Source: Treponema sp.
GTDB lineage: Bacteria; Spirochaetota; Spirochaetia; Treponematales; Breznakiellaceae
Direction of reading: 5' to 3'
NCBI GenBank assembly: GCA_031266875.1
Contig: JAISAE010000080.1
Span: forward strand, 21,417-85,416
Length of the DNA stretch: 64,000 nt
The notes under the pieces: model-generated
Database searches by the model: none
Seen by the model: the letters and a program-made list of their open reading frames with translations, nothing else
What the model was told of the DNA's origin: nothing
Position numbers and translations under genes: made by a program
Shown: positions 61,094-64,000 of the stretch, in pieces
Numbering within the stretch: the stretch's first letter is position 1
Layout of the letters: each line of letters begins with the position of its first letter

Positions 61094-62539
61094 ATGATTG
61101 AGACAAAAACCGAGGGACAGTTACTTTCCGAAAAGCTATCCTTTGAGATTAAGAACTGCTGGGAAACAGCAAAACCGGAAGAGTTCCCAAAGATAAACCT
61201 CTTCGCGGAACAGTATAAGGCGTTCCTGAACAAGGGGAAAACCGAGCGTGAGTGCGTGAGGCAGTGCGTGGAGCAGCTTGAGTGCGCGGGCTTTATCAGT
61301 CTTGATAAGGCGCTCGCTCAAGGCGGGCAGCTTGCCCCGGGCGCGAGAATTTATCAGAATGTCAGGGAAAAATCCCTGCTCTGCGCGGTTCTTGGCGAGA
61401 AATCTCTGCGCGAAGGCGTCAATATTGTAGGGGCGCATGTTGACGCCCCGCGTATGGACCTGAAAACCAATCCGCTCTATGAGGATTCCGGCTTTGCCCT
61501 GTTCGATACCCACTACTATGGCGGAATCAAGTATTACCAGTGGACAACTATTCCGCTTGCCCTGCACGGGGTGGTGTTTACCCGAAACGGGGAAAGGCGA
61601 GACATCTGTATCGGCGAGCATGAGAACGATCCGGTCTTTACGATTACCGATCTTCTGCCGCATCTGGCGCGGGAACAACTAAAGAAGGAAGCATCGCACT
61701 TTATTGACGGCGAAGACCTTGACGTTTTGGCCGGTTCCAAGCCCTATCAGGACAATAAGGTCGAGAATAAGGTGAAGCTTGAGGTTTTGCGGCTCCTGTA
61801 TGAAAAGTACGGCATGGTCGAGGAAGACTTCGCGGGCGCGGAACTTGAGCTTGTGCCAGCTGGCAAAGTGCGGGATGTTGGTCTTGACCGGAGCATGATT
61901 GGCGGCTATGGGCATGACGACCGATGCTGCGCCTACACCGCGTTTAGTGCGTTGCTTGAGCTTGCCACAGCCGATGCGCGGCCCGCAAAGACGATACTCT
62001 GCTTTTTAAGCGATAAAGAAGAGATCGGTTCCAGAGGAAATACCAGCGCGGACGCCCGCTTTTTCGAGAACTTCATCGCCTGCCTTTGCGCGAAAACAAT
62101 CGACTCTTACACCGAGATGGACCTGCGCCTTGCGCTGAGTACATCCTCCATGCTTTCGGCTGACGTGAACGCGGCCTTTGACCCCAACTACGCGGATGTG
62201 TACGACAAAAAAACCACATCCTGGTGCGGCAAGGGCATTGGTCTCTCCAAGTACACCGGCTCAGGCGGCAAGTACGGCGGCAGTGAGGCTAACGCCGAGT
62301 TCTGCCAGAAGGTGCAGGCGCTGTTTAACCAAAACAAGATTCGCTGGCAGTACGGGGATTTGGGCAAAGTAAACAAGGGCGGCGGCGGAACCATCGCCCT
62401 GTACGCGGCGCGTCTGGGGATTGATGTTCTGGACTGCGGTCTTGCGGTCTTGTCCATGCATTCCCCCTTTGAGGTGATAAGCAAGATCGACCTGTACACA
62501 GCGTATCAGGCGTATATCGCGTTCCTGCGGGATATGTAA
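61094..62539 (+). CDS. M18-family aminopeptidase
   Basis: 'VGAHVDAPRMDLK', 'GYGHDDRCCAYTAFSALLE', 'LSDKEEIGSRGNT', 'VLSMHSPFEVISKID'. Confidence 0.92.
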   Translation: MIETKTEGQLLSEKLSFEIKNCWETAKPEEFPKINLFAEQYKAFLNKGKTERECVRQCVEQLECAGFISLDKALAQGGQLAPGARIYQNVREKSLLCAVLGEKSLREGVNIVGAHVDAPRMDLKTNPLYEDSGFALFDTHYYGGIKYYQWTTIPLALHGVVFTRNGERRDICIGEHENDPVFTITDLLPHLAREQLKKEASHFIDGEDLDVLAGSKPYQDNKVENKVKLEVLRLLYEKYGMVEEDFAGAELELVPAGKVRDVGLDRSMIGGYGHDDRCCAYTAFSALLELATADARPAKTILCFLSDKEEIGSRGNTSADARFFENFIACLCAKTIDSYTEMDLRLALSTSSMLSADVNAAFDPNYADVYDKKTTSWCGKGIGLSKYTGSGGKYGGSEANAEFCQKVQALFNQNKIRWQYGDLGKVNKGGGGTIALYAARLGIDVLDCGLAVLSMHSPFEVISKIDLYTAYQAYIAFLRDM

Positions 62540-62778: not shown

Positions 62779-62813
62779 GCTCCCGGCTCCCGGCTCCCGG
62801 CTCCCGGCTCCCG
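62779..62813. repeat. Five perfect copies of heptanucleotide GCTCCCG
   Basis: Read directly. Confidence 0.97.
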
Positions 62814-63029
62814 GCGCATATTGTACAGACAAGCAGTCTCTCTGTCTATTAATCTTGACTAGTCCGCCCCTAAGTCGTTACAATGTAACTAGTTAATTAT
62901 ACTATATAGACTTATGACCTGTCAAGATGATTGTTATATTCGGAGTAAGCGTGATACTCCGACGTTAATGTAACGGGGCATGAAGGCTAGAATTGTCAGC
63001 CTTGTGGCGCGGCGGCACGGTTTGCCAAG

Positions 63030-63530
63030 CTACCAGACGACTGCCGCGACCCCCGCGCCAAGGGCGAGAACGCCCGCTACGATAGCCACCGTCCGCCAGA
63101 CACGGACGCTCCGGTCAAGGCGGGCGCTGTTCGCCCGCTCCCGCGACAGTTCCGTCTCCAGCAGCGTCGCGTCCTCCATCGCCCAGGCCAAGGAGTGTTC
63201 GGATTCGCTCAACCGCTCCCCCAGTTGCTCTGTCCAAACCCTCAAGCTCATGACCAATACCGATTGCTCGTTGTATAGTCCCTTGAGTGTCGTCAATGAG
63301 AAGGCCGCCGTGTTCAATTCGTTGTTCAAGCTCGTCAATAACTGTCGCTGCTTCCCCAAGTTGCTTTCTAAGAGACTCAAGTTCATATTGATGTCGCTCA
63401 AGGCTCGCGGTGAGAGCGTTACGCTCCCGTCCGTCAAAGACTCCACGCGCCACCCAACCTGACACCAAACAGATAACAGTGAGCAGTATAGCAACAACAA
63501 CAAAAACAAGATCCTTCTCGTCATACTCAT
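63030..63530 (-). CDS. Phage-lysis-region protein with signal/N-terminal TM, coiled coil and C-terminal TM
   Basis: MSMTRRILFLLLLLYCSLLSVWC ... VWRTVAIVAGVLALGAGVAAVVW; starts 4 nt inside the next-listed ORF and overlaps the endolysin stop. Confidence 0.55.
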   Translation of the reverse strand: MSMTRRILFLLLLLYCSLLSVWCQVGWRVESLTDGSVTLSPRALSDINMNLSLLESNLGKQRQLLTSLNNELNTAAFSLTTLKGLYNEQSVLVMSLRVWTEQLGERLSESEHSLAWAMEDATLLETELSRERANSARLDRSVRVWRTVAIVAGVLALGAGVAAVVW

Positions 63531-63534
63531 ACAC
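63115..63534 (-). CDS. Overlapping out-of-frame ORF: N-terminal TM + coiled coil (i-spanin/Rz-like architecture)
   Basis: GTG start 63534; KDLVFVVVAILLTVICLVSGWVA then ERHQYELESLRKQLGEAATVIDELEQRIEHG. Confidence 0.45.
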   Translation of the reverse strand: MYEYDEKDLVFVVVAILLTVICLVSGWVARGVFDGRERNALTASLERHQYELESLRKQLGEAATVIDELEQRIEHGGLLIDDTQGTIQRAIGIGHELEGLDRATGGAVERIRTLLGLGDGGRDAAGDGTVAGAGEQRPP

Positions 63535-63964
63535 CGGTTACCCCCTTCTGATTCTTGGGGCGGAGCCAGCCAATCACGTTGACGTAGTCATGCTCGGTCT
63601 CTGTGCATTTGGATAAGGCCGGCCAGTTTTGGTCAAACGACGTGAAGCCGTTTACGTCGCCGTGGATGAACACGCTGACATGCCCGTACCCCTTTCCCCG
63701 CTTCCTGTCCCAGACAATCACGTCGCCGTAACGCGGGACAGCTTCCGGCGCGTTCTTAATCAGCGTGAAGTTATCCCGTAACGCCGCGTCGCTACCATAG
63801 TTCTCAAAGAACGCCGCCGCTCCGTCCACCGGACGCGGCTGCGCGGGTAGTCCCAGCACGTCCTTGCAGTAAAACCGGAACAAATCCACGCACTGACCCG
63901 CGTAAGCCTTGTCATAGTCAAGACACTTCCCGATGTTCGCCTTAACAAATTCTCTAAACCTCAT
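63527..63964 (-). CDS. CHAP-like endolysin/peptidoglycan amidase (phage-type)
   Basis: 'YAGQCVDLFRFYCKDVLG' (Cys) and 'YGDVIVWDRKRGKGYGHVSVFI' (His); overlaps the downstream lysis ORFs. Confidence 0.75.
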   Translation of the reverse strand: MRFREFVKANIGKCLDYDKAYAGQCVDLFRFYCKDVLGLPAQPRPVDGAAAFFENYGSDAALRDNFTLIKNAPEAVPRYGDVIVWDRKRGKGYGHVSVFIHGDVNGFTSFDQNWPALSKCTETEHDYVNVIGWLRPKNQKGVTGV

Positions 63965-64000
63965 TGTAGCTCCTTAGTAAAGTATTTTGAGCGTTGCCAG

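Follow-up and report, generated by a model that had tools for sequence, protein, structure and literature searches.

Lysis genes at the end of the contig

The window, i.e., the whole 64,000-nt stretch of Treponema sp. DNA analyzed here, ends at position 64000 together with its contig, and a lysis cassette was found on the minus strand at this end. The contig thus offers no sequence beyond 64 kb, where the original prediction proposed to look for phage structural genes. The outermost gene is holin-like; its C-terminal end, with the last 12 codons (...WQRSKYFTKELQ*), is present at 63961..63999 and the remainder lies beyond the contig end. It was named by sequence comparison with a complete 65-aa, two-TM gene of the same genome (L026:327-524), for which no match was found in PHROG. 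The stop codon of the holin-like gene overlaps the start codon of an endolysin gene (63527..63964, minus strand) in the sequence ATGA. The 145-aa endolysin carries a CHAP domain (Pfam, 33.5 bits against a cut-off of 26) and matches PHROG endolysin families (best E 3.1e-26), and its catalytic residues C25 and H95 were invariant in six aligned sequences.

Two start codons 4 nt apart, GTG 63534 and ATG 63530, lie within the endolysin stop region, as the original prediction had described. The first opens frame A (139 aa, 63115..63534, minus strand) and the second opens frame B (166 aa, 63030..63530, minus strand). A Shine-Dalgarno-like stretch, AGAAGGGGG (63541..63549, minus strand), is spaced 6 nt from the GTG and 10 nt from the ATG, a position from which it could serve both starts alike. 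Frame A has an acidic N-terminus and a single N-terminal hydrophobic segment (predicted TM, residues ~9-28), and the rest is helical and predicted to be periplasmic, which agrees with the one TM and coil originally proposed. The proposal of membrane segments at both ends of B, with a coil between them, was likewise borne out; B has a predicted signal peptide, a hydrophobic segment at either terminus (the C-terminal TM is predicted at ~147-166) and an uninterrupted helix between them. AlphaFold2 predicted a helix at residues 3-33 and then one helix at 41-165 with a pLDDT of ~95, and, with a rise of 1.5 A per residue, the ~105 residues that precede the TM would form a periplasmic rod of ~16 nm.

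The succession of holin end, endolysin and A/B is the lysis-cassette location expected of two-component spanins, and it was found both in the window and in a second, complete-looking cassette on contig C100 of the same genome, which has a phage integrase ~1.4 kb downstream. The endolysins of two cassettes of this genome (window 63527 and L026:976) are 93% identical, and the homology ends at the endolysin end, with the subsequent A/B pairs sharing only ~28% identity, which would fit an exchange of the lysis module at this point. Fragments of the 3' half of B were also seen on four other contigs of the genome (L173:9654-9884, L169:19788-19954, L174:5986-6078 and L175:9067-9184) with 78-92% DNA identity, and their homology mostly stops close to the B stop codon. 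The fragment in L169 (contig C66) reaches the contig end and may be part of a complete copy, and in L175 (contig C39) a deletion fuses an endolysin remnant to a B remnant. In the window itself, a short tandem GCCGGGA array (62780-62812) separates the lysis genes from a convergent aminopeptidase-like gene (61094-62539, plus strand), which was named by eye.

Conservation and dual coding of the nested frames

Homologous nested A/B pairs were found in spirochaete genomes and viral contigs, giving 69 curated cassettes, in all of which B is in phase A+1. A scripted scan of 168 loci had yielded 50 unique nested candidates, and B is in this phase in 46; the other-phase candidates L071, L084, L087 and L122, as well as L106, were judged to be chance and were dropped before the counts. 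The curated 69 correspond to 72 cassettes minus L079, L086 and a minus-strand hit in L120. Among 32 loci fetched via B alone, some of which are in the query profile, the A frame was open over the hit in 32/32; it exceeded the third frame in length in 30, matched it in one and fell short of it in one, which is at a contig edge. An N-terminal start for A is missing from two of these loci, and five lie at contig edges. A recognizable A was present in 23 of 24 further loci fetched through B, several of which re-find known cassettes, and the sole exception, L208, is an unrelated coiled-coil protein. The interruption of one frame by stops in homologues, which the original prediction named as a refuting observation, was thus not seen in the B-found loci (32/32 and 23/24). 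A and B show similar identities between relatives (e.g., 52/63% and 57/58%).

Database searches placed neither protein in a described family. No curated Pfam or NCBIfam cut-off was reached by A or B, and the labels obtained with PHROG, Pfam and NCBIfam (tape measure, SMC, myosin, Rz-like) were treated as coiled-coil noise. A tblastn search of INPHARED phages with the B proteins of the window, L045, L161 and L114 gave no match. A phylum-wide search gave matches in 155/392 genomes at E<=0.001, a figure not used as prevalence because many of the weak matches fall within long ORFs and resemble coiled coil of a generic kind.

In the window, A and B share ~137 codons, over which the third frame of the same strand has 15 stops. 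When B was shuffled among synonymous codons, frame A stayed open in 4.0% of cases; the reciprocal shuffling of A left B open in 2.6%. Since an antisense ORF of 160 aa (62980..63462, plus strand) is also open over the same DNA, and since the shuffled pairs had been chosen for being open, openness alone is weak evidence, and the case that A and B are open for more than chance reasons comes from the comparison of homologues. A substitution test was carried out on 23 disjoint homologous cassette pairs, none of which includes the window pair. Given the A+1 phase of B, each site belongs to one of the classes X (A1/B3), Y (A2/B1) and Z (A3/B2), and Z would be expected to be the slowest class if B alone mattered. 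In the overlap, substitutions numbered 788/2440 for X, 563/2457 for Y and 665/2457 for Z, and in the B-only tail they numbered 373/706, 227/685 and 191/685, respectively. Z therefore exceeded Y in the overlap (OR 1.25, p=0.0009), with the order reversed in the tail (interaction p=0.0005); an earlier set of 13 pairs agrees with this pattern. The excess of Z over Y, seen only in the overlap, shows both frames to be constrained at the level of the family, which is the outcome that the originally suggested codon-level check was meant to detect.

The statistics for dual coding are weaker for cassettes in which A has a TM, the type found in the window, than for the whole family. For pairs in which A is a lipoprotein, the Z/Y interaction remained significant when they were considered alone (p=0.0003), whereas for TM-type pairs alone neither the excess of Z over Y (p=0.18) nor the interaction (p=0.16) was significant; the rate of X in the TM type was also lower in the overlap (0.355) than in the tail (0.589). 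That one frame is a real gene and the other its open but meaningless shadow could be argued from the long chance ORFs that GC-rich overlaps leave, of which the antisense ORF would be an example. This explanation is nevertheless extremely improbable, as both proteins are conserved, both frames are constrained across the family, and the lipobox or TM of A is kept in homologues fetched via B. Taken together, these sequence comparisons confirm A and B as two real overlapping genes.

The muralytic enzymes found beside the nested pair include CHAP, Amidase_2, M15/VanY, C39-like and M23 types, and this variety of five enzyme types indicates a module that is independent of any one enzyme; separate holin-like genes adjoin several of the pairs. 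Among 100 CHAP-family endolysin loci, 27 had the nested pair only, 25 had a conventional i-/o-spanin pair only, one had both and 47 had neither. The conventional-spanin assignments in this count are uncurated (L056 looks doubtful), and the 47 include two loci missed by the filters, L065 (nested, at a contig edge) and L119 (conventional). The nested call at the single locus with both, L106, was spurious. Spirochaete cassettes that lack the nested pair and carry a conventional one include L112, L113, L118, L119 and L125. Such a lack of co-occurrence would be expected of a nested pair that takes the place of spanins. The near-identical conventional spanin cassettes L117 and L118 come from horse-faeces MAGs titled Lachnospiraceae and Treponema, one of which is probably misbinned.

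Membrane anchors of A and B

A is a lipoprotein in 28 of the 69 cassettes, with lipoboxes such as FSGC, LTGC and FSAC, and has an N-terminal TM in 41, including the window. This split is a hand correction of a scripted 27/42, in which L002 and L053 were changed to TM and L134, L160 and L198 to lipoprotein. With the pattern [LVI][ASTVI][GAS]C as the criterion, no canonical lipobox was found in A or B of the window, the only candidates being TVIC in A and SVWC in B, neither of which was accepted; a lipobox as used to define two-component spanins is thus absent from the window and, for this reason, the pair was not classed as a known spanin. A search within ~2.5-3 kb of 23 TM-type cassettes gave no separate lipoprotein ORF for 21 of them, and the lipoprotein hits near the remaining two (L002 and L099) are A itself. 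Taking into consideration that A of the window has no lipobox and that a lipoprotein ORF is not found nearby, an outer-membrane anchor is missing exactly in the type to which the window belongs. Profile comparison linked the lipoprotein- and TM-type sets of A with 94.6% probability (E 7e-8, starting at the lipobox or TM) and the corresponding sets of B with 97.4% probability, links that run largely through the coiled coil. Two unusual arrangements were also observed. In genome G089 (L020:2277-3095), frame A continues without a stop into the following region, which looks like a phage structural gene, for 272 aa overall. In G067 (L157:1408-1875), a lipobox-like A-type stretch (LCGCTS) is read in the B frame, which suggests a frameshift by mutation or sequencing error.

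Several features of the B N-terminus are consistent with an export signal. Across the 69 cassettes, it consists of a basic n-region followed by a hydrophobic segment with a median length of 16 residues, and the first charge after this segment is acidic in 49. The N-terminal segments of TM-type A have a median length of 20 residues with a basic first charge in 38/42, and conventional i-spanin N-terminal TMs have a median length of 21 residues with a basic first charge in 14 of the 15 typed. Cleavage sites identified by eye in relatives of B include AWG|Q, AEA|Q, LQA|Q and CYA|Q; other B proteins have no Cys at the place aligned with that of the window and mostly have A, G or S at -1 and then Q, E or D. 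In the window, cleavage is predicted at ...SVWC|Q. Because the Cys is then the -1 residue and the relatives end in SPase I-like sequences, the B N-terminus is better read as an export signal than as a lipobox. The original prediction was right that B lacks a clear lipobox; its description of B as a nonstandard o-spanin did not stand, since with the Cys at -1 B is not a failed o-spanin. A motif like xITESEL directly follows the signal in 25/69 B proteins, with partners of either A type.

B would accordingly differ in orientation from a classical i-spanin: it is likely to be a type I (N-out/C-in) inner-membrane protein with a signal peptide and a C-terminal TM. With a basic N-terminus and two membrane segments, the coil would be periplasmic with the signal either cleaved or retained. 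The signal peptidase pattern, searched as a regular expression, does not discriminate for B, as it was also matched by 30/42 TM-type A proteins and 8/15 conventional i-spanins. Moreover, basic residues flank the C-terminal TM, with a mean net charge of +2.8 before and +1.7 after it, and those before it are not what the positive-inside rule would favour for an N-out B. Periplasmic Cys residues, a criterion for two-component spanins, are absent from B in 56/69 cassettes and from the rod in the window. B has a C-terminal TM without the lipobox that would accompany it in a unimolecular spanin. With regard to the type II topology of i-spanins, A of the window has an N-terminal TM but an acidic N-terminus, and B is predicted to be type I.

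A spanin-like candidate and its relation to known systems

Based on these observations, we consider it probable (about 0.6) that A and B form a spanin-like module for disruption of the outer membrane with an inverted inner-membrane subunit. The original prediction of a divergent spanin-type lysis system thus most likely holds as regards overlapping genes in a holin-endolysin cassette, but its topology needs to be corrected. The module would act after the holin and the endolysin, at the stage where phage proteins break the outer membrane. B would be exported by Sec, its signal peptide would be removed, and its C-terminal TM would hold it in the inner membrane with the coiled-coil rod in the periplasm, in the reverse of the classical i-spanin orientation. 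A of the lipoprotein type would be expected in the outer membrane as the partner of B, so that such a pair would bridge both membranes, and A of the TM type would be anchored by its N-terminal TM, as classical i-spanins are. Once the peptidoglycan is cut, A-B complexes could collapse and draw the membranes together. For the window and 40 others of the 69 cassettes, it is conceivable, although doubtful, that the module is a lipid-free spanin made of a type II A and a type I B without a lipoprotein anchor, in which B would have the layout of a class I viral fusion protein. The order of signal peptide, coiled coil, basic-aromatic stretch and C-terminal TM in B was likened to that of such proteins, and this likeness is part of the same tentative reading.

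The anchoring of both proteins apparently in the inner membrane in 41/69 cassettes, the window included, and the position of the pair directly behind holin and endolysin would also suit an inner-membrane device for lysis timing (a holin partner, antiholin or endolysin regulator) that does not disrupt the outer membrane. This is rather unlikely, given that A is a lipoprotein in the other 28, that the pair does not co-occur with conventional spanins and that separate holin-like genes lie near several pairs. It is still less probable that A is a classical type II i-spanin, with its o-spanin encoded elsewhere and B serving another purpose: A of the window does resemble an i-spanin with an N-terminal TM, and weak matches to Rz-like PHROG families were obtained (phrog_89, E 0.013), but the TM-type cassettes tested have no lipoprotein ORF within the distance given above, and in a lipoprotein-type pair the lipoprotein is A, which leaves B as the sole partner in the inner membrane. 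That B is a unimolecular spanin whose lipobox, SVWC, is degenerate, with A as an accessory, is very unlikely. Unimolecular spanins have a C-terminal TM and no periplasmic Cys (PMC6139136), as B mostly does, and AWAC is an example of an unusual lipobox, but the aligned Cys is absent from other B proteins and the periplasmic part of B is helical, not beta, in the AlphaFold2 model. With no usable lipobox and with SPase I-like ends in the relatives, B was rejected both as an o-spanin and as a unimolecular spanin.

The preferred reading, a spanin-like module with an inverted subunit, is close to the lambda Rz/Rz1-type spanins in that the pair comprises the last genes of a holin-endolysin cassette, consists of two overlapping envelope genes with a coiled-coil periplasmic domain, includes a lipoprotein partner in part of the family and is not found with conventional pairs at the same loci. 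It differs in the type I layout of B, the missing lipobox of A in the window and the mostly Cys-free periplasmic part of B. In addition, A and B start at the same end, which makes Rz/Rz1, cited originally as the precedent for the overlap, a loose one; embedded o-spanin genes usually start ~0.4-0.5 into the i-spanin gene (PMC6139136). Unimolecular spanins of the T1 gp11 type share with B an N-terminal export signal and the two features named above, whereas B lacks their lipobox, has a helical rod in place of a beta domain and is encoded with an overlapping second protein. A cellular precedent for B is found in TIGR04211 (SH3_and_anchor), whose layout comprises an export signal, a coiled coil and a C-terminal anchor. 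The T. pallidum B protein matches this family weakly (E 1.5e-6, 28 bits), as do other B proteins, the similarity lying in the coiled coil and the C-terminal anchor, but the score is far under the 65-bit cut-off, B has no SH3 domain and the family is not a nested pair.

Neither the nested pair nor a spirochaete spanin study of this kind was found in open-licence full texts. Kongari et al. (2018) assigned no spanin to 91/677 phages of Gram-negative hosts and stated that type I inner-membrane proteins could be i-spanins, but did not consider them in the search (PMC6139136). A survey from 2025 filters I-spanins on a TM and O-spanins on a lipid box, and 'spirochaet' does not occur in its main text (PMC12596118). 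In Leptospira transposable prophages, predicted spanins lie near an M23 enzyme (PMC8705779). The membrane orientation of B therefore appears to have been proposed earlier, with no report of it in the literature searched, and A/B is likely to be new relative to that literature, a spanin by its likely function without assignment to a known class.

A nested pair was also found in genome G127, behind a VanY/M15 enzyme (L010:1263-1743; L172:5089-5569, i.e., G127:C1:228088-228568). For TP0222 of T. pallidum Nichols, an E46D polymorphism at nucleotide 228259 has been reported (PMC10013896); in G127 this nucleotide falls within codon 46 of B (GAA), and the two published primers for TP0222 have their sites inside the nested-pair locus. 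The codon match and the primer positions identify the hypothetical protein TP0222 as frame B of the pair. Frame A at this locus has 135 codons, with 12 stops in the third frame of the overlap, and is similar by eye to A of L205 and L207 (GIDP[AE]R...); it is not mentioned in the consulted passages of PMC10013896. Unlike the cassette of the window, TP0222 has chromosomal housekeeping genes on both sides; phage genes were not seen in 10 kb, and the pair is probably a chromosomal lysis module that was domesticated or survives as a relic.

The nested-pair family thus provides, in phages of an entire phylum, a concrete, widespread and testable candidate for the spanin gap left by Kongari et al. (2018). 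It is also a large natural collection of genes that overlap on one strand, always in the same phase, and it traces a hypothetical protein of the syphilis spirochaete to its origin.
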